From: Cytophagales bacterium
GTDB lineage: Bacteria > Bacteroidota > Bacteroidia > Cytophagales > Spirosomataceae
Direction: 5' to 3'
DNA length: 64,000 bases
NCBI GenBank assembly: GCA_013298215.1
Contig: JAAFKE010000002.1
Coordinates: forward strand, 62,001-126,000
Below are positions 52,496-60,373 of this stretch, piece by piece. The translations under genes and the position numbers were made by a program. Each line of letters opens with the position of its first letter. The stretch's first letter is position 1. A model generated the notes under the pieces. It made no database searches and was not told where the DNA came from. It saw only the letters and a program-made list of their open reading frames with translations.

Positions 52496-52569
52496 GGTTG
52501 CGTAGCTCAATTGGATAGAGCACCTGACTACGGATCAGGAGGTTTGGGGTTCGAATCCCTACGTGACCA
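52496..52569 (+). tRNA. tRNA-Arg (ACG)
   Basis: A complete cloverleaf. The seven-pair acceptor GGTTGCG/CGTGACC has two G-U pairs. The D-arm is GCTC/GAGC, and the anticodon arm CCTGA/TCAGG has loop CTACGGA, so the anticodon is ACG. The T-arm is TGGGG/CCCTA with loop TTCGAAT, followed by discriminator A. CCA is not encoded. An intrinsic terminator follows at once, and the last 14 bases begin a ~125-bp direct repeat. Confidence 0.95.
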
Positions 52570-52680
52570 CTTTCAAAACAAAAAAGCCTTTCACATTGCT
52601 GTGAAAGGCTTTTTTGTTTTAATTGCATTTTAAACATAAATAGCTATGACACAGGCCACGGCATTGTTTGAGTTGTATAA
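52556..52680 (+). repeat. Direct repeat, left copy (tRNA 3' end + terminator + antitoxin 5' end)
   Basis: This 125-bp block starts in the T-arm of tRNA-Arg (TCCCTACGTGACCAC), includes the terminator, and ends about 35 bases into the antitoxin reading frame. It recurs at 53217-53340 with a few substitutions and one single-base length difference. Confidence 0.9.
52580..52615. terminator. Intrinsic terminator after tRNA-Arg
   Basis: A 16-bp stem AAAAAAGCCTTTCACA and its complement around TTGC, ending in a T-tract. It lies 11 bases after the tRNA. A near-copy is at 53243-53274. Confidence 0.9.
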
Positions 52681-52882
52681 GCACCTACCCGAACGGGAAC
52701 GGCACAAGTTTAGGGGGCTGATAGTGAGCGAAATAGACGATGTACCCGTTTTGGAACAAATCAAAGACGGTATTCGTGAAATAAAAGCCATACGGCAAGG
52801 TAAGGTACAAGCCAAAGACTTAGACGATCTTTTAAACGAAATGCGAAATGAGCGTAAAGATAAAAGCCCTATCGCACTTTGA
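52646..52882 (+). CDS. Small antitoxin-like protein upstream of a RelE-type toxin
   Basis: A 78-residue acidic/basic helical protein (MTQATALFELYKHLPERERHKFRGLIV... ending NERKDKSPIAL). It overlaps the next gene by 35 bases, the usual arrangement of type II toxin-antitoxin pairs. No DNA-binding motif is obvious beyond helices. It starts downstream of a tRNA terminator, so it needs its own promoter, which was not recognised. The first ~35 bases are part of the direct repeat. The antitoxin role rests on position and the toxin partner, not on a recognised family. Confidence 0.62.
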   Translation: MTQATALFELYKHLPERERHKFRGLIVSEIDDVPVLEQIKDGIREIKAIRQGKVQAKDLDDLLNEMRNERKDKSPIAL

Positions 52883-53216: not shown

Positions 53217-53340
53217 TCCCTACGTGACCACTTTCAAAACAAAAAAGCCTTTCGCATTTCTGTGAAAGGCTTTTCTGTTTTAGTGCATTTTAAACATAAA
53301 TGGCTATGACACAGGCCACGGCATTGTTTGAGTTGTGTAG
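53217..53340 (+). repeat. Direct repeat, right copy
   Basis: About 124 bases match 52556-52680: the tRNA 3' end sequence (no functional tRNA), a slightly decayed terminator, and the first ~35 bases of an antitoxin frame, which then ends at a TAG. It lies immediately before the truncated DUF29 gene. Confidence 0.9.
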
Positions 53341-53427
53341 TCATTTGCCCATTTCGTCAATCAGAGCCAAGGCCGCCGAATAATCGTGGGCTTCTACCAT
53401 TTTGCGTAAGGCTTCCAACTCTTCCAT
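53341..53427 (-). pseudogene. Truncated first copy of the DUF29-like gene (N-terminal 26 residues)
   Basis: A 28-codon frame reading MEELEALRKMVEAHDYSAALALIDEM then GK and a TGA. The first 26 residues match the start of the neighbouring full-length gene at 53435-53866 exactly. It is bounded on the left by the right copy of the tRNA-anchored repeat, suggesting that an insertion or duplication cut off this copy. Confidence 0.85.
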
Positions 53428-53434
53428 GGCGTGT

Positions 53435-53866
53435 TTAGTCTCTATAATTCAAAATCAAACCCAATGCTTCGGTTTTTATTTGTTGCTCATTAACCATTTG
53501 CGCTAATTCTTTGGCCGAGAAATCGCCTTCAAATGCCTCGTCGGCGGCATCTCTTAACGATTTATTAAATATTTCGTCAATGGCTTCTTGCAGGTCGTCT
53601 TTTGAGAGATAAAACCCCTTGCTGTTGCGTCTTTTGTTGGAACTTTGAACCCCATCTTTGGCATTTCTGATGGAACGTTCCCAAGATTTTGTGGTTCGTT
53701 TTTCGGCTTGTTTCTTGATAAGATGAATCAACAATATTTTCAAAAAACTTTCTATTTTTACTATTTTGTCATCTTTGGCCATTTCGTCCATTTCGTCAAT
53801 CAGAGCCAAGGCCGCCGAATAATCGTGGGCTTCTACCATCTTGCGTAAGGCTTCTAACTCTTCCAT
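53435..53866 (-). CDS. DUF29-like protein, divergent tandem copy
   Basis: A 143-residue soluble helical protein. The segment ALALIDEMDEMAKDDKIVKIESFLKILLIHLIKKQAEKRTTKSWERSIRNA has the DUF29 pattern L..E.........l..lL.HL.K......SW..si. It differs from its two neighbours mainly between residues 45 and 115, whereas the first 35 and last 30 residues (EAFEGDFSAKELAQMVNEQQIKTEALGLILNYRD) are almost unchanged. It begins 7 bases after the next copy. Function of DUF29 is unknown; the domain is common as repeated paralogs in cyanobacteria and some Bacteroidota. Confidence 0.72.
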   Translation of the reverse strand: MEELEALRKMVEAHDYSAALALIDEMDEMAKDDKIVKIESFLKILLIHLIKKQAEKRTTKSWERSIRNAKDGVQSSNKRRNSKGFYLSKDDLQEAIDEIFNKSLRDAADEAFEGDFSAKELAQMVNEQQIKTEALGLILNYRD

Positions 53867-53873
53867 GGTGTGT

Positions 53874-54305
53874 TTAGTCTCTATAATTCAAAATCAAACT
53901 CAATGCTTCGGTTTTTATTTGTTGCTCATTAACCATTTGCGCCAATTCTTTGGCCGAGAAATTGCCTTCAAATGCCTCGTCGGCGGCTTCTTTCATGGCA
54001 AAAGCAAATGCCTCGTCGATGGCATCTTCCAATTCTTTAACTTTCAAATAATATCCTCCCGAACTACGTCTTTTGTTGGCACTAATAACCCCTCTTACCG
54101 AGTGATTTACCGACCTATTCCACGAACTGGTAGTTCGTTTTTCGGCCTTTTGTTTGATAAGATGCACCAACAGCACGTGCAAAAAGCTAACTATTTTGGT
54201 TATTTTATCATCTTTGGCCATTTCGTCCATTTCGTCAATCAGAGCCAAGGCCGCCGAATAATCGTGGTCTTCTACCATTTTGCGTAAGGCTTCCAACTCT
54301 TCCAT
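53874..54305 (-). CDS. DUF29-like protein, tandem copy 2
   Basis: A 143-residue paralog of the flanking copies. It is almost identical to the copy at 54313-54744; at protein level the only clear change is MAKDD here against MARDD there. The core KITKIVSFLHVLLVHLIKQKAEKRTTSSWNRSVNHS matches DUF29, with the conserved SW. The near identity implies a recent tandem duplication or gene conversion. Function unknown. Confidence 0.74.
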   Translation of the reverse strand: MEELEALRKMVEDHDYSAALALIDEMDEMAKDDKITKIVSFLHVLLVHLIKQKAEKRTTSSWNRSVNHSVRGVISANKRRSSGGYYLKVKELEDAIDEAFAFAMKEAADEAFEGNFSAKELAQMVNEQQIKTEALSLILNYRD

Positions 54306-54312
54306 GGCGTGT

Positions 54313-54744
54313 TTAGTCTCTATAATTCAAAATCAAACTCAATGCTTCGGTTTTTATTTGTTGCTCATTAACCATTTGCGCCAATTCTTTGGCCGAGAAA
54401 TTGCCTTCAAATGCCTCGTCGGCGGCTTCTTTCATGGCAAAAGCAAATGCCTCGTCGATGGCATCTTCCAATTCTTTAACTTTCAAATAATATCCTCCCG
54501 AACTACGTCTTTTGTTGGCACTAATAACCCCTCTTACCGAGTGATTTACCGACCTATTCCACGAACTGGTAGTTCGTTTTTCGGCTTTCTGTTTGATAAG
54601 ATGCACCAACAGCACGTGCAAAAAGCTAACTATTTTGGTTATTTTATCATCCCTGGCCATTTCGTCCATTTCGTCAATCAGAGCCAAGGCCGCCGAATAA
54701 TCGTGGTCTTCTACCATTTTGCGTAAGGCTTCCAACTCTTCCAT
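54313..54744 (-). CDS. DUF29-like protein, tandem copy 1
   Basis: A 143-residue protein, the first of the array in the direction of transcription. It starts 5 bases after the upstream small gene's stop, so it is probably translated from the same transcript. Sequence features are as for copy 2: a helical protein with the LLVHLIK...TTSSW DUF29 core and the shared C-terminus ELAQMVNEQQIKTEALSLILNYRD. No membrane segments or signal peptide. Function unknown. Confidence 0.74.
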   Translation of the reverse strand: MEELEALRKMVEDHDYSAALALIDEMDEMARDDKITKIVSFLHVLLVHLIKQKAEKRTTSSWNRSVNHSVRGVISANKRRSSGGYYLKVKELEDAIDEAFAFAMKEAADEAFEGNFSAKELAQMVNEQQIKTEALSLILNYRD

Positions 54745-54749
54745 GGATT

Positions 54750-55163
54750 TTATTCTATATCAATTCTATGTTGTTCATTCACTTTTTGATAGTAAGTTAT
54801 GGCCAATGAAGCATTTATCTGGGCTATTTTTCTAATTTGCTCGGAAGTAAGTCCCCAATTGCCTTGCAAAGAGCGCAATATAGCAATCCAGATAGAAATC
54901 ACAGAACCACCCGTTTGTCTGATAGCATCATGATTAGCCGCCAACAAATCAAGCAATTTATTGAACTGATGAATCTTTTCTTCGGCAGTTCCTACTTCTA
55001 TTTTAATTTCTGCACAACCATTGAGGTATTCTTTTTTGTGGTCTTTAATGAAAGCTATACCTCCTTTCTCTACACAATTTTTCAAAGGTAAAGAGGTCAT
55101 AAAAAGTAATTTACGCGGTGAAAAGTACTCGCCACGAATACTAATAGTTATAGAAAAGTCCAT
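54750..55163 (-). CDS. Small unknown protein
   Basis: About 137 residues from the ATG at 55163 (three residues of an upstream start are possible). The N-terminal half is beta-rich (MDFSITISIRGEYFSPRKLLFM, then EIKIEVGTAEEKIHQFNKLLDLL). The C-terminal half is helical (SVISIWIAILRSLQGNWGLTSEQIRKIAQINASLAITYYQ). It resembles, in length and in its beta-plus-alpha arrangement, small immunity-type proteins such as DUF4279, but I do not recognise a family with confidence. It lies between a 75-residue unknown gene and the DUF29 array on one strand. Confidence 0.55.
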   Translation of the reverse strand: MDFSITISIRGEYFSPRKLLFMTSLPLKNCVEKGGIAFIKDHKKEYLNGCAEIKIEVGTAEEKIHQFNKLLDLLAANHDAIRQTGGSVISIWIAILRSLQGNWGLTSEQIRKIAQINASLAITYYQKVNEQHRIDIE

Positions 55164-55226
55164 ATTTACCAATTATTCATGGCAGTACTAATTTCAGTTT
55201 ACACCAGTTATGTCATGATTCCTTTA

Positions 55227-55454
55227 TCAATTTCCTCTTTTTACAAAAACAATGTCCTCGTCAATAATCCTACATAAAATGAGACCTATTTGCTCTGATT
55301 CAATAAGTATGCCTCCTTGCGACGCAGACCAATCCAAAGCATCTTGTGTATCGGGCAAAATTACTTTTCGAACACAAACTTCGTGAACTTTACCCAAAAA
55401 ATTGATATTGATTATGTCTCCTGTCTTTACAAGTTTATTATTCTTGTATTTCAT
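55227..55454 (-). CDS. Small unknown protein, possibly partner of the upstream lipoprotein
   Basis: A 75-residue protein from the ATG at 55454 (KYKNNKLVKTGDIININFLGKVHEVCVRKVILPDTQDALDWSASQGGILIESEQIGLILC...). It is beta-rich with no membrane segment. An 11-residue longer frame from 55487 exists but lacks a good start. It begins 49 bases after the end of the Cys-rich lipoprotein gene on the same strand. Small beta-rich proteins encoded directly after a secreted protein often act as immunity proteins, but there is no family match here. Confidence 0.5.
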   Translation of the reverse strand: MKYKNNKLVKTGDIININFLGKVHEVCVRKVILPDTQDALDWSASQGGILIESEQIGLILCRIIDEDIVFVKRGN

Positions 55455-55503
55455 CTTAATCTTTAGAAAGCAGTCGAAATGTAACAAATAGACTCATGAT
55501 TGG

Positions 55504-56541
55504 CTATTGAACACCTCCGCCAGAAGCAGGTTCTACCGAAATAGCACCAGGCTGAGGAGAATATCCAGACGTAGGATTTATATAGTCTCTATCCCAAAAA
55601 CACTTACACCCTGCTTTTGGGGGGCTCTGATTCATTCTGAAATGATGTGTATGATATGGCATACCATTATGTGGCTTTTCTCCATTGTCTACACTATGAT
55701 ATTCAAAAGCAAGACCTCCTACTGACACAGGTGTACATGGCTTACATTTACTCATATCCTCATCTTCTGGATCGGGATCAGGAAGACAATAAGAACCAAT
55801 AACATAACAGCCCAAATCCAATACGTAGCAATCTGTTATAGGATTCACCCCTATACAACCAGCACCGCCATAGGCAATTTCTTCATCGGTACAACTATGA
55901 GCCCACCAACATATAGTCATTGTTTCGCAACGCCAATTAGTTATACAAGTTTCATTTGTTCTCGCATTTTTTATGGAAGTAGGAATATTACAAGTCTGGC
56001 CAGTTACATAACCATCTTCCAATAAATACCCAGCAGTAGTTTCATCATTTTCATCTAAAAAGAAAAGATGTCCAGAAAATTTCTTTTCTTTTAAATTACT
56101 CAATGACAACTGTTTATAATTCTTTTGATTCTTTTTTAAAAAACCGGGATTGCATACTAACTGCATGATTTTCATCTGAAATTTTTTGTTTTTATCCCTG
56201 AATAACACAAGTTTAGTAACACCGTTAAATTCTTCTTTCATAACGGGGGCTGTATCTGTTTTGAACCGAATACTGTACTTATAGTCAAGGTCGTTAAGAC
56301 GCAGGGGAACTTCAACTATATCTTTGTTCAGATATCGAAAGTCTTTGGCAAATTTCCATATCGGTGATTTGGCTTTTTTCGTCGTTCTTAAATTTCTAAG
56401 CGACATCTGCGAACTCTCAAAATATTGCTTTGCTTCTTCAATCAGAGTTGGTTCTGATGATAAAATACGTTCATACTGACATGAAAAAGTCAGCGTAACA
56501 AAGAAAGCCAACAGCACTGGAAAAATATGTTTTCGGTTCAT
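55504..56541 (-). CDS. Cys-rich secreted lipoprotein of unknown function
   Basis: A 345-residue protein with a lipoprotein signal (VTLTFSC, Cys at residue 21). The first 180 residues are a beta-rich region with no recognised domain. Residues about 185-280 hold about a dozen cysteines (for example QTCNIPTS, ETCITNWRCETMTICWWAHSCTDE, GGAGCIGVNPITDCYVLDLGCYVIGSYC, KCKPC). The C-terminus is His-rich (YHSVDNGEKPHNGMPYHTHHFR) and ends GCKCFWDRDYINPTSG. Disulfide-stabilised exported structure is likely. The gene lies downstream of nuoF on the same strand, 58 bases after it, in an AT-richer segment. A polymorphic-toxin end is possible but unproven. Confidence 0.6.
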   Translation of the reverse strand: MNRKHIFPVLLAFFVTLTFSCQYERILSSEPTLIEEAKQYFESSQMSLRNLRTTKKAKSPIWKFAKDFRYLNKDIVEVPLRLNDLDYKYSIRFKTDTAPVMKEEFNGVTKLVLFRDKNKKFQMKIMQLVCNPGFLKKNQKNYKQLSLSNLKEKKFSGHLFFLDENDETTAGYLLEDGYVTGQTCNIPTSIKNARTNETCITNWRCETMTICWWAHSCTDEEIAYGGAGCIGVNPITDCYVLDLGCYVIGSYCLPDPDPEDEDMSKCKPCTPVSVGGLAFEYHSVDNGEKPHNGMPYHTHHFRMNQSPPKAGCKCFWDRDYINPTSGYSPQPGAISVEPASGGGVQ

Positions 56542-56599: not shown

Positions 56600-57940
56600 C
56601 TACACCAATTCCAACTCACCCCGATACACCGCGCCAGGCTGTGTGGCCTCGAATGGGTGCGTGATGTGCCACTCAAACTCATCACGGAAGTGGCGAATGG
56701 CACTCGCCACGGGCCAAGCTGCCGCGTCGCCGAGTGGGCAAATGGTGTTGCCCTCAATCTTTTTGGCTACATCTACCAGCAGGTCAATGTCGTGCATCGA
56801 GCCGTGGCCGTGTTCGATGCGGTGGAGTACTTTCTCCATCCAGCCAGTGCCTTCGCGGCAGGGGCTACACTGCCCGCACGATTCGTGGTGGTAGAAACGG
56901 GCGTAGTTCCAGGTGTTGCGAACGATGCAGACGGTCTCGTCCATGGCAATGAAACCACCCGACCCCAACATTGTACCCGACACAAAGCCACCGTCCGACA
57001 GCGATTCGTAGGTCATTAGGCGTTTTTCGCCAGCAATAGTGGTTAGGATGCGTTCGGCTGGCAAGATCGGCACCGACGAGCCGCCTGCTACCACGGCTTT
57101 CAAATAGTGCCCAGGTCTGATACCCCCGCACCATTCGTCGGCATAAATAAAGTCTTCGACCGACACGCCCAACTCGATCTCGTACACCCCAGGTCGGTTG
57201 ATGTGGCCCGATGCCGAGATAAGTTTTGTGCCCGTGCTGCGGCCCACGCCAATGGCCGCGTAGGCATCGCCGCCGTGGTTTACGATCCACGAAACCGTGG
57301 CAATCGACTCGACGTTGTTTACCACCGTTGGGCATTGGTATAGGCCCTTCACGGCGGGGAAGGGTGGTTTGTTGCGGGGGTTTCCGCGCTTGCCCTCCAA
57401 TGATTCTAAAAGTGCGGTTTCTTCGCCGCAAATGTACGCGCCGCCGCCAGGTTGCACCACCAGCTCGAGGTCGTAGCCCGAACCGAGGATGTTTTTGCCC
57501 AGAAAACCAGCCGCTTTTGCCTCGGCAATGGCCTTTTCAAGAATATCGATGACGTAGAGCAACTCGCCGCGCACGTAGATGAAAGAGGTGTTTGCGCCGA
57601 GGGCAAAGCTCGACACGATCATGCCCTCGATGAGCAGGTGCGGGAGGTTTTTCATCAAGTAGTGATCCTTGAACGTACCAGGTTCCGACTCGTCGGCGTT
57701 GCAAACCAAGTAGCGCGGAACGCCCTCGGGTTTGGCCAAAAAGCTCCATTTCATACCCATCGGAAAACCCGCACCGCCGCGCCCGCGCACGCCAGCTTTT
57801 TTTACCTCCTCCACTATTTCGTCGGGGGTCATTTTTTTAATTGCCTTTTCAACGGCCTCATAACCGCCCATCTTGCGGTAAACTGCCAAGGTTTCGATGC
57901 CAGGAACGTTGATGTGTTCGGTGAGAATTTTGGTTGCCAT
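56600..57940 (-). CDS. nuoF: NADH-quinone oxidoreductase subunit F
   Basis: Peripheral-arm subunit that binds NADH, FMN and the N3 4Fe-4S cluster. The 446-residue protein has the FMN motif GVRGRGGAGFPMGMKW (about 51-66), the NADH-binding region with GAYICGEETALLESLEGKRGNPR, and the cluster motif ESCGQCSPCREGTGW (CxxCxxC with a distal Cys in TICPLGDAAA). Length is typical. It starts 8 bases after the stop of a nuclease-like gene, and 1.5 kb of inserted genes separate it from nuoE, which normally lies directly beside it. No nuoG follows; the next gene downstream encodes an unknown lipoprotein. Confidence 0.96.
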   Translation of the reverse strand: MATKILTEHINVPGIETLAVYRKMGGYEAVEKAIKKMTPDEIVEEVKKAGVRGRGGAGFPMGMKWSFLAKPEGVPRYLVCNADESEPGTFKDHYLMKNLPHLLIEGMIVSSFALGANTSFIYVRGELLYVIDILEKAIAEAKAAGFLGKNILGSGYDLELVVQPGGGAYICGEETALLESLEGKRGNPRNKPPFPAVKGLYQCPTVVNNVESIATVSWIVNHGGDAYAAIGVGRSTGTKLISASGHINRPGVYEIELGVSVEDFIYADEWCGGIRPGHYLKAVVAGGSSVPILPAERILTTIAGEKRLMTYESLSDGGFVSGTMLGSGGFIAMDETVCIVRNTWNYARFYHHESCGQCSPCREGTGWMEKVLHRIEHGHGSMHDIDLLVDVAKKIEGNTICPLGDAAAWPVASAIRHFRDEFEWHITHPFEATQPGAVYRGELELV

Positions 57941-57948
57941 GTTGTTCT

Positions 57949-58566
57949 CTAATCTTTAATTTGTTTTTTACATTCAGTAAGTATGTGCTCAATAACCGAA
58001 CAGAGTGTTTGTAGTTCAAACACCGAATAAATGGTTTTGTTTTTTGTGAAAGTGTCGGTTTGTAGTTTTCCAAACTCCCAAAATTCGCCATTGGTTACAA
58101 TTCCGTACACATCTATGTCAGCTATTTCGCAATTCAATTTTTGAGCAGCTACCATTTCGGCGGCACATTGCCCCCAACCTTCGTCAAAATTGTCTTTTTT
58201 TGCCTCAACAGCCATACAAATTGGGCGTCCTACTACGGCTCGGCCAAATTTTGTTTTTCGGGCAAACAAATAATCGGGGATGCCCATCAAATCTTCATTG
58301 ACGTTGATGGTTGGATGGCTCCACAACAAAAAACTATCCTTGAAGCTTTTCCAGTTTTCTCTCAAAATAGGAAAAATTAACGTTTCGCAGATTGCCGCTT
58401 CCGAAACATCGTAGGCCAGTTCGTTCAATGACAATTTTATTTCTTTTTCCAGTTCATTCAGCGATGCTTTCGGGCTGAAATTTTGGGCCAAAAAATCGGT
58501 TTCTTGAAGCGACAAATCGTACTTCAACAACACCGACCCCAAAGATTTGAACTGCGTAAAGGCCAT
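57949..58566 (-). CDS. PD-(D/E)XK-like protein embedded in the nuo operon
   Basis: A 205-residue soluble protein. The stretch DLMGIPDYLFARKTKFGRAVVGRPICMAVEAKKDNFDEGWGQCAAEMVAAQKLN has an Asp, then E-A-K-K, then Q, the spacing of the D...ExK restriction-endonuclease-like core found in uncharacterised PD-(D/E)XK proteins. The N-terminal half is helical. It starts on the base after the previous gene's stop, and nuoF begins 8 bases after its own stop. It could be a nuclease, a recombination protein or a non-catalytic relative. I do not recognise a named family. Confidence 0.62.
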   Translation of the reverse strand: MAFTQFKSLGSVLLKYDLSLQETDFLAQNFSPKASLNELEKEIKLSLNELAYDVSEAAICETLIFPILRENWKSFKDSFLLWSHPTINVNEDLMGIPDYLFARKTKFGRAVVGRPICMAVEAKKDNFDEGWGQCAAEMVAAQKLNCEIADIDVYGIVTNGEFWEFGKLQTDTFTKNKTIYSVFELQTLCSVIEHILTECKKQIKD

Positions 58567-58977
58567 TTATTTTAAGAACTCGTTTAAATCATACCCAATC
58601 GAATCGCAAAAAGATGGGTTTTCGGTTATTTCGCCTTCGCCCAGTTTGTATTTGCGCCACTTGTATGTTCTGTAATTATAAACAAAACCTTCTGGAATTT
58701 GATATTTTTCGGCTACTTCTATCACTTTTTTAAAGTCAAAGTTTTCCGAAACAGGAATCGTTACTTCCACAAACATGATGTTTTGCTCAGAAACTGCATC
58801 AAAAAGCAAAACGTCGGGAGTAGCACTTGTTTTCGACTCGTCTATCATTGTTTCGGGAAATGGCTCAAACGCAATATCACCCGCCATGTATAGCTTGTCG
58901 AGGCCAGTGGTAAGTTTACGAATTACCCGCTGGTGTTCCTTTGGTGCATTTGTCCCCATAACTGGTACGTCTAACAT
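58567..58977 (-). CDS. Uma2-like protein (copy B)
   Basis: A 136-residue protein whose middle, TPDVLLFDAVSEQNIMFVEVTIPVS, then FDFKKVIEVAEKYQIPEGFVYNYRTYKWRKYKLG, follows the Uma2 (DUF820) restriction-endonuclease-like layout: PDV, EV-x-x, K, then Y-x-x-x-G-x-x-x-Y/F. The usual family length is about 180-190, so this is a short form lacking the usual N-terminal part. It is a paralog of the gene at 58991-59401, and the C-terminus (LGEGEI...SFCDSIGYDLNEFLK) is nearly identical. It lies inside the nuo operon, with a 13-base gap to its paralog. Enzymatic activity is unproven. Confidence 0.66.
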   Translation of the reverse strand: MLDVPVMGTNAPKEHQRVIRKLTTGLDKLYMAGDIAFEPFPETMIDESKTSATPDVLLFDAVSEQNIMFVEVTIPVSENFDFKKVIEVAEKYQIPEGFVYNYRTYKWRKYKLGEGEITENPSFCDSIGYDLNEFLK

Positions 58978-58990
58978 AAGTCAACGATGT

Positions 58991-59401
58991 TTACTTCAAA
59001 AACTCGTTTAAATCATACCCAATCGAATCACAAAAAGACGAGTTTGTGGTTATTTCGCCTTCGCCCAGTTTGTATTTTCGCCAGTTGTAGGTTTTGTAAT
59101 TATACACAAAACCTTCTTTTATTCCGTAATAATCAACCAACTCGGACACTTTTTTAAAATCACCATTTACGCCTTTGGTCGTAGATATTTCAATCATTAC
59201 CACGTCCGTGTCCGAAACCGCGTCATACAACAAAACATCGGGCGTTGGACTGGTGCGCCCTTCATCGAGCATTGTTTCTGGAAACGGTTCGTAGGGAACA
59301 TCGCCAAGTACGTACAGCCTGTCCAGACCCGCAATCAGTTTCCGAATCACCCGTTGGTGTTCGCGTGGTGCATTTGTTCCCATAATTGGCACGTCCAACA
59401 T
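58991..59401 (-). CDS. Uma2-like protein (copy A)
   Basis: A 136-residue paralog of the neighbouring gene with the same start (MLDVPIMGTNAPREHQRVIRKLIAGLDRLY) and end. The middle (TPDVLLYDAVSDTDVVMIEISTTKGVNGDFKKVSELVDYYGIKEGFVYNYKTYNWRKY) differs in about a third of positions, and the EVT of copy B is EIS here. The pair arose by tandem duplication inside the nuo operon. It follows nuoE by 8 bases, so it is translated from the same transcript. Function unknown. Confidence 0.66.
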   Translation of the reverse strand: MLDVPIMGTNAPREHQRVIRKLIAGLDRLYVLGDVPYEPFPETMLDEGRTSPTPDVLLYDAVSDTDVVMIEISTTKGVNGDFKKVSELVDYYGIKEGFVYNYKTYNWRKYKLGEGEITTNSSFCDSIGYDLNEFLK

Positions 59402-59409
59402 AACCGTAT

Positions 59410-59907
59410 TTATTTAGACAAGTCCGCGATTATTTCATCTACTTTATCGTTGGTCAGATTCATGTAGTACTGCTCTCTGATCTGAAAAACGGGCCCCCAG
59501 CCGCAGGCCGCCAGGCACTCCACTTCTTTGAGCGTAAAATTGCCGTCGGGGGTGGTTTGGCCCGTTTTTATGCCCAATTTTTCTTGAATGTACTCATAAA
59601 CGGGCTCGGCGCCCATGGTGCAGCAGGGGCCAGTGCGGCAGTATTCGATAACGTGCTTGCCCACAGGTTGGAGGTGGTACATGGTATAAAAGGTGGCCAC
59701 TTCATAAACCTCAACGGGGGCTATCTCTAAAATACCCGCCACGTAGTCCATCACTTTGTCGCTCAACCAACCCCACTGGGCCTGGGCTACGTGCAAAATA
59801 GGCAGCAACGCCGATTTTTGTTTGCCCGCTGGATACCGCGCTATAATTTCTTGCACCTTGGCCATGCGCTCTGGCGTGAAGGCTATGTTTGGGGTTGTTT
59901 CGGTCAT
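59410..59907 (-). CDS. nuoE: NADH-quinone oxidoreductase subunit E
   Basis: Small subunit of the NADH-dehydrogenase module, binding the N1a 2Fe-2S cluster. The 165-residue protein has the thioredoxin-like fold with two cluster-ligand pairs: CRTGPCCTMGAE (about C91 and C96) and VECLAACGWGP (about C131 and C135). The N-terminus is helical (FTPERMAKVQEIIARYPAGKQKSALLPILHVAQAQWGWLS), as in the family. It overlaps the upstream DUF29 gene by 4 bases, and an Uma2-like gene follows by 8 bases, so the inserted genes are embedded in the translation units of the operon. Confidence 0.95.
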   Translation of the reverse strand: MTETTPNIAFTPERMAKVQEIIARYPAGKQKSALLPILHVAQAQWGWLSDKVMDYVAGILEIAPVEVYEVATFYTMYHLQPVGKHVIEYCRTGPCCTMGAEPVYEYIQEKLGIKTGQTTPDGNFTLKEVECLAACGWGPVFQIREQYYMNLTNDKVDEIIADLSK

Positions 59908-60359
59908 TGTTTTTGCAATAAATATTCGTCTTCAAAAACTTCCTGCCAGCTGAGTGGCGCGGGTTCAAACGGGTCTTTTCGGGATAGATTCATTTCGGCT
60001 TTTGCTTCCCTCAGCGCGTACTTAAAACATTTCTCCCAGCTTTTATTTATAAATTCTTGGTTGAAAGAAGGCTTTTCATCCTGCCATCTTTCAATCTCCA
60101 AACGCGCATTGGCAATGGTTCTTACCCAACTTGTTGATGCCTTCTCTGATTGGTATTTCCATTTCAGGACATGCAACATGAGCCGTATCAGTTGGCTTTC
60201 GATACTTCTTTTTTGGGCAACTGACATACTTTCTTCTAATGTTTCTAAGCCTTCGCGGGCCTCGTCGTATTCTTGTTCGTCGAGCAACCACTTAATTTTA
60301 GTAACCGTGTCTAAGTGCGATGTCGTGGCAAGTTCTTCCCAGTTTGTGGCCGTTGTCAT
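59904..60359 (-). CDS. DUF29 protein embedded between nuoD and nuoE
   Basis: About 151 residues from the ATG at 60359. The DUF29 pattern is clear: W.EL..........I.WLLDEQEYDEAREGLETLEESMSVAQKRSIESQLIRLMLHVLKWKYQSEKASTSWVRTIANARLEIERWQDEKPSFNQEF, with HVLKW and SW conserved. It overlaps nuoE by 4 bases (ATGA) and lies 14 bases after nuoD. DUF29 is a family of unknown function, not part of complex I. Three further DUF29-like genes lie about 5 kb downstream on the same strand. Confidence 0.8.
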   Translation of the reverse strand: MTTATNWEELATTSHLDTVTKIKWLLDEQEYDEAREGLETLEESMSVAQKRSIESQLIRLMLHVLKWKYQSEKASTSWVRTIANARLEIERWQDEKPSFNQEFINKSWEKCFKYALREAKAEMNLSRKDPFEPAPLSWQEVFEDEYLLQKQ

Positions 60360-60373
60360 GTTCACTTTTGTTT

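Follow-up and report, generated by a model that had tools for sequence, protein, structure and literature searches.

A tandem DUF29 paralog cluster downstream of nuoF in a Cytophagales bacterium, with old cores between junctions probably homogenised by local recombination

The locus

The window, which is the whole stretch of 64,000 nucleotides that was analysed from a Cytophagales bacterium of the Spirosomataceae (contig JAAFKE010000002.1, positions 62,001 to 126,000), carries on its minus strand three intact DUF29 genes and the stump of a fourth, lying head to tail with a period of exactly 439 bp. Tandem Repeats Finder reports the array at 53342-54746 with period 439, 3.2 copies and a score of 2151. 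The intact units U0 (54313..54744, the first unit), U1 (53874..54305) and U2 (53435..53866, with a diverged core) each comprise 143 codons plus stop and are followed by a 7-nt linker, and the stump U3 (53342..53427) has its start codon at 53427 and is cut after about 80 nt. A preliminary description of this DNA had given the same layout, three full units and a truncated one on a 439-bp period, and its coordinates are correct. All three intact genes match Pfam DUF29 (PF01724) with 37.6, 28.4 and 28.6 bits against a gathering threshold of 22.5 (E 3e-9 to 2e-6), and in the 3.55-Mb genome the array is the sole site at which the subfamily was found (four matches including the stump).

Upstream of the array and in the same direction lies nuoF (56600..57940, minus strand; Pfam Complex1_51K and NADH_4Fe-4S), separated from U0 by three ORFs of 345, 86 and 140 amino acids (54750..56541, minus strand) that have no family match above the cut-off. 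Between nuoE and nuoF there is a tandem pair of 136-aa genes (58567..58977 and 58991..59401, minus strand), of which the upstream copy, the one scanned, gave no Pfam match, and between this pair and nuoF there is a PD-(D/E)XK nuclease-like gene (57949-58566; PADLOC PD_DExK, E 4.5e-46). A single classic DUF29 gene stands between nuoD and nuoE (59904..60365, minus strand). The minus strand carries nuoF, nuoE and nuoD according to Pfam, and by reading also, presumably, nuoA-C. As nuoG and nuoH of this genome are found on another contig (C45; L029 3056-4141), the nuo operon, which is that of complex I of the respiratory chain, is interrupted either at the array or past it. On that contig, nuoG and nuoH stand behind genes that by eye resemble glycosyltransferases.

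On its other side, the array is fused head-on, through U3, to a cut second copy of a segment that consists of a tRNA-Arg 3' end, a terminator and the start of a gene in antitoxin position (53217..53340, plus strand). The first copy of this segment lies at 52556-52690, and the two copies, 661 bp apart, flank a RelE-family module. The fusion looks like a rearrangement scar. The RelE-family gene near the array, on the other strand, has an upstream partner, and for the DUF29 genes no partner can be named.

Divergence along the unit

Over the 439 positions of a unit, U0 differs from U1 at 5, and U2 differs from U0 at 92 and from U1 at 91. The identity of U2 to U0 and U1 is 94-97% over the first ~105 and the last ~110 nt and ~61% in the middle. 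Maximum-likelihood segmentation of U1 against U2 divides the unit at nt 106 and 319, which leaves 4 mismatches in the 105 nt of the 5' segment, 83 in the 213 nt of the core and 3 in the 111 nt of the 3' segment, and codon shuffles equalled this segmentation in 0 of 20 and 0 of 200 cases. The diverged core of U2 thereby spans unit nt 106-318 (53549..53761, minus strand), and the residue ranges given earlier for the fixed ends and the diverged core were right to about ten residues. Even substitution along the length, which the preliminary description had named as speaking against exchange, is not what is seen: substitution is strongly uneven.

Between U1 and U2, the core has a dS of 1.11, as compared to 0.18 for the 5' end and 0.05 for the 3' end, and the silent-site likeness beyond the age of the paralogs by which concerted evolution is recognised is present at both ends and lacking in the core. 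The U1/U2 core has a dN/dS of 0.40 and varies most at third codon positions, i.e. it is under ordinary purifying selection and shows no sign of positive selection. In every array core for which an estimate was possible, dN/dS is below 1.

Recurrence in other arrays

For comparison, 95 genes of the subfamily were assembled, drawn from the window and its relatives, from the classes to which an Anaerolineales genome and a cyanobacterium belong, and from a small number of other sources, leaving out L156, which is the same stretch as L023, and genes that are shorter than 125 amino acids or lack the N end, including one of L154. L030 and eight further loci were also left aside. When pairs are matched for a core identity of 0.50-0.62, nucleotide identities of 5' end, core and 3' end are 0.83/0.56/0.77 in six adjacent tandem pairs, as compared to 0.57/0.54/0.45 in 54 dispersed pairs of the same genome, which are mostly cyanobacterial, and 0.56/0.55/0.46 in 2262 pairs between genomes. 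At a core identity of 0.62-0.80, the values are 0.91/0.72/0.67 for adjacent tandem pairs (5), 0.79/0.71/0.55 for dispersed pairs (74) and 0.75/0.69/0.55 between genomes (586). Pairs of the same locus that are 0.6-3.5 kb apart reach 0.78/0.59/0.60 (nine pairs, lower core range) and 0.88/0.68/0.68 (eight pairs, upper range). In L023, genes 3.3 kb apart share the 5' end (0.97) and also the leader ahead of the start codon, and direct adjacency is thus not always required.

Per locus, the mean excess of the 5' end over the core is 0.23 in 10 of the 12 tandem loci as compared to 0.03 in 3970 control pairs, and that of the 3' end is 0.12 as compared to -0.09; this test excludes pairs with a core identity of at least 0.80 (L151, L172, U0/U1 and two pairs of L148), covers the tandem loci among the matches listed rather than a full census, and yields rough P values, since the gene pairs depend on each other. 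Both ends are clearly homogenised at four of the 12 loci with adjacent genes, which are the window (Bacteroidota), L023 (Anaerolineales HSG24), L153 (from the class of HSG24) and L148 (from the cyanobacterial class); their breaks fall at unit nt 94-124 and 319-358. The other loci are less complete: L013 has only its 5' end homogenised, L020 and L021 chiefly a 3' stretch, and in L151, L152 and L172 the 5' part and the core are similar and the 3' end differs, while the break pattern is marginal in L147 (P 0.04) and not significant in L012 (P 0.16). Many of the array genomes are draft assemblies in which repeats may be collapsed or expanded, though the differences between units argue against a pure artefact. 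Judged by these sequence identities, homogenisation of the ends is a recurrent feature of DUF29 arrays in three phyla and is absent in dispersed copies of matched core divergence.

A weak parallel is offered by the 136-aa pair between nuoE and nuoF, the 3' third of which is more similar than the rest: codon identity in the three parts is 14/25, 13/29 and 29/37. The upstream copy is nearer to its L012 relative than to its neighbour in the core (27/46 to that relative), and in the 3' part it is nearer to the neighbour (29/37) than to the relative (21/32). This suggests, from codon comparison of one such pair, that the likeness of ends may belong to arrays rather than to DUF29.

The junction as the shared block

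Whether a 3' end is shared depends mainly on what comes after the gene. A gene-by-gene copying of ends would have given the last member of an array the common 3' end as well, which it usually lacks. The last 75 nt are 0.85-0.97 identical in all seven pairs in which both genes are followed by an array member, and 0.23-0.89 identical in 23 pairs that include an unfollowed gene (class medians 0.38 and 0.28; P=6e-5 with pairs that are not independent). Pairs with a core identity of at least 0.85 were dropped from this comparison, and the tails were aligned ungapped from the stop codon, which understates identity where lengths differ. U2, which is followed by the stump, and L021_2980, which is followed by a gene start at the contig end, were scored as followed by hand; without their pairs, four followed pairs are left, with tail identities of 0.88-0.93. 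In each of L023 and L152, three genes adjoin one another and the 3' end of the last is unlike that of the first two, and in L148 the fourth gene departs from the third from about nt 331, with the last ten residues matching again. An exception is L153, with a tail identity of 0.89 for a gene that counts as unfollowed, the next member coming only ~540 bp later.

As it is mainly followed genes that agree in their 3' ends, what the genes share is the junction, reaching about 100 nt to either side of the start codon. The shared ends join into an uninterrupted block over each gene-to-gene junction, consisting of the 3' end of one gene, the linker and the 5' end of the next. On the minus strand of the window, these blocks lie at 54201..54426 (U0/U1) and 53762..53987 (U1/U2), with limits transferred from the U1/U2 segmentation, and at 53342..53548 (U2/U3, truncated). 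What the preliminary description had taken for two fixed shoulders of each gene is, on this alignment evidence, best seen as the halves of one junction block. The 5' end of the first gene in an array is shared as well, so reciprocal crossing-over alone is insufficient and some non-reciprocal conversion is implied. The 5' break falls within a predicted long helix (residues 16-55) and not at a domain edge, which would speak against an exchange of folded domains.

Age of the cores and origin of the shared junctions

A gene of another Spirosomataceae genome (L012, at 3432) allows the cores to be dated relative to each other. Between U2 and this gene, dS is 1.57 at the 5' end, 0.75 in the core and 2.09 at the 3' end, and in the tree the L012 gene is the partner of U2 (support 0.96) and an Arcicella gene of L013 that of U0 (0.87). 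As the U2 core is nearer to L012 (0.75) than to U1 (1.11), the split between the cores of U0/U1 and of U2 predates the separation from L012, and the sharing of ends is the young part. Two old gene lineages, represented by the cores of U0/U1 and of U2, bear near-identical ends.

The array is a small DUF29 paralog cluster downstream of nuoF in a complex I operon, with old cores and with junctions that have probably been homogenised by local recombination. We infer a homologous recombination inside the array, which could be gene conversion or an unequal crossing-over that would also alter the copy number. It would rewrite the DNA from about 100 nt before to about 100 nt after each start codon and would halt where the cores are too different to pair, and the cores, kept by ordinary purifying selection, would go on diverging as old paralogs. 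Arrays may also break, as appears to have happened here, where the last unit is cut and joined to the tRNA-Arg/RelE region and the remainder of the operon is elsewhere. The earlier preference for exchange between paralogs over simple decay is supported by the low dS of the ends in relation to that of the core and by the similar patterns in unrelated arrays.

It could also be imagined that the middle of U2 came from the DUF29 gene of a relative by transformation, with the ends remaining native. A U2 core that is nearer to L012 than to U1, combined with the ends of U1, would agree with such a cassette exchange, which had been proposed earlier for the variable core. We nevertheless regard it as unlikely, because the first 38 residues of U2 are also identical to those of the L012 protein, because a core dS of 0.75 is old and the L012 gene thus no recent donor, and because the sharing of 3' ends tracks the position in the array, which an import does not predict; also, the pattern is absent in dispersed copies. 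With the end sharing being young and the core dN/dS at 0.40, the exchange of a variable core finds no support.

Another explanation would be that identical ends are selected, either as an interface formed by the N and C ends of co-expressed paralogs or as an RNA signal near the start, with the cores setting specificity. The similar block limits of unrelated arrays and the shared leader ahead of the start codons in L023 agree with this. It can be assessed with a between-locus control of 594 pairs of at least 45% amino acid identity, in which the N end is 59%, the core 55% and the C end 45% identical, so that the core is not specially variable. Where the two genes of such a pair have the same amino acid, their codons agree at a rate of 0.48 in the 5' end, 0.44 in the core and 0.47 in the 3' end, and 8 of the 594 pairs reach P<0.01 for a 5' excess and 4 of 594 for a 3' excess. 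The silent sites of the ends thus agree within an array and not from genome to genome, for which mere constraint is insufficient, and selection should also have held the 3' end of an unfollowed gene, which usually escapes, and the ends of dispersed paralogs in the same genome, which do not match. A selection for identical ends is therefore very unlikely to be the cause. A programmed diversification of the cores, as in the diversity-generating clusters to which the array had been likened, would give fixed ends and a differing core but hardly merits consideration, as dN/dS is 0.40 in the core of the window and below 1 in every core that could be estimated, 6 of the 14 invariant alignment columns sit in the core (L45, L46, H48, K51, E55, S61), and the conservation of the core between loci is ordinary.

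Distribution of the subfamily and other DUF29 sites

Of 222 genomes of the family, 21 carry the subfamily at E 1e-12, counting that of the window, and in a wider sample of 291 genomes of the order, one genome besides the window's has it at E 1e-15. The copy number in the family ranges from 0 to 4 between species, with the stump counted and one genome per species. In the other carriers of the family, all 20 copies lie within the nuo operon: 15 in the nuoF/nuoG gap, four just before nuoC, and one at the beginning of a contig, 0.9 kb upstream of nuoG. A frameshift disrupts one of the 20 (G102), and stop codons disrupt another (G158). Outside the family, a Hymenobacter MAG (L145) has its copy at nuoF/nuoG, and L144 has one without a nearby nuo gene. 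Among 16 family genomes that lack the subfamily, one per genus, nuoF and nuoG are adjacent in 14, with gaps between hit edges of 21-238 bp; of the remaining two, L246 has a nuoF-nuoG gap of 1191 bp and L235 is a stretch without nuoF. An Arcicella MAG contains a frameshifted DUF29 gene in the nuoF/nuoG gap (L027 4001-4409, L141), the first 42 residues of which are 93% identical to U2.

Simple vertical inheritance of DUF29 together with NuoG was considered and rejected (Spearman 0.16 over 204 pairs, P 0.02; this tree also includes two classic DUF29 genes, which stand apart from the rest as a pair). Searches for mobile carriage yielded no relatives of the subfamily in IMG/VR with the profile query A1, in plasmids with the U2 protein at E 1e-8, or in phages with the U2 protein at E 1e-5.

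Among 12 further places of classic DUF29 genes in the family, the gene is located upstream of gltD in seven (L212, L213, L215-L217, L222, L223), directly adjoining it in five and with small ORFs intervening in L215 and L223, and gltB is on the far side in six of these seven, the seventh ending at the contig end. In L214 and L219, DUF29 lies between genes of an exonuclease family and a pseudouridine-synthase family, in L221 it comes after a gene that by eye is nuoD-like, and two places have other neighbours. The glt gaps of L212 and L215 contain DUF2442, DUF4160 or DUF6883 genes alongside DUF29, and matches to DUF4926 and ParE in glt gaps fall below the Pfam cut-off.

Fold and possible function of DUF29

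Each of the 29 sequences in alignment A2 is recognised by PF01724 with an E value no higher than 0.01. U2, which is the first row of A2 and belongs to the MEEL-type branch, shares only 18-23% identity with the five classic DUF29 genes to which it was aligned. The predicted structure has a pLDDT of 93.4. VIA-align 2 places the solved all-helical protein 3FCN first, which we take to be a DUF29 protein itself, with a Z of 9.3 (the next row has 5.7) and an rmsd of 5.1 over 129 residues, though a Z below about 13 can reflect a common helical-bundle arrangement. Foldseek found nothing in the PDB under E 0.001. With PADLOC, 12 of 26 members weakly matched one CARF-HEPN model (best E 1.9e-5), and the N-terminal half of DUF29 has a weak recurrent HMM similarity to the helical/HEPN part of Csm6/Csx1, which is a lead only. 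The RNase motif of HEPN and Csm6-like proteins is R-x4-6-H, and inspection of the invariant columns by eye revealed no such motif. The A2 profile also has marginal matches to designed PPR repeats. A search of the literature retrieved no paper with DUF29 as a whole word or with PF01724. The company of DUF29 in the gaps of core operons, i.e. RelE-type, DUF4160, DUF2442, DUF6883 and nuclease-like genes, suggests a toxin-antitoxin-like or defence cargo, and this is our preferred guess, with a chance of being proved that is well below even.

Implications and comparison with known systems

A further-reaching and rather doubtful idea is that DUF29 genes might be elements at home in operons, which take up positions between core operon genes (nuoD/E, nuoF/G, before nuoC, gltB/gltD) and grow into arrays there, with a start-centred recombination tract of about 100 nt to either side, general across phyla, keeping the ends interchangeable. 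If this is true, old cores could come, go and recombine between interchangeable ends and leave the host operon undisturbed. The analysis places DUF29 within operons of respiration and nitrogen assimilation, where gain and loss can be traced between related species, and it yields a concrete, testable rule for the evolution of bacterial tandem paralogs, by which junctions would be rewritten and cores would not. Whole-gene trees and annotations of DUF29 from arrays would be misled by the mosaic ends.

The cassettes of Uma2 (COG4636) are similar in arrangement. In cyanobacteria, Uma2 is a likely solo toxin that occurs mostly in cassettes of paralogous genes (PMC2701414), and an ORF of the Uma2 family has been placed downstream of the hox genes rather than inside (PMC2674450). 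It is, however, another protein family, and the parts of the Uma2 account considered here make no mention of homogenised ends (PMC2701414). DUF29 arrays look like these cassettes, and in one case a Uma2 gene adjoins a DUF29 gene (L227).

Tandem gene arrays are subject to concerted evolution by gene conversion or unequal crossing-over. DUF29 arrays resemble such systems in that silent-site sequence is shared within an array and copy number differs between species, but they differ in that the junction block only is homogenised and the core escapes, with limits that are alike in unrelated arrays.
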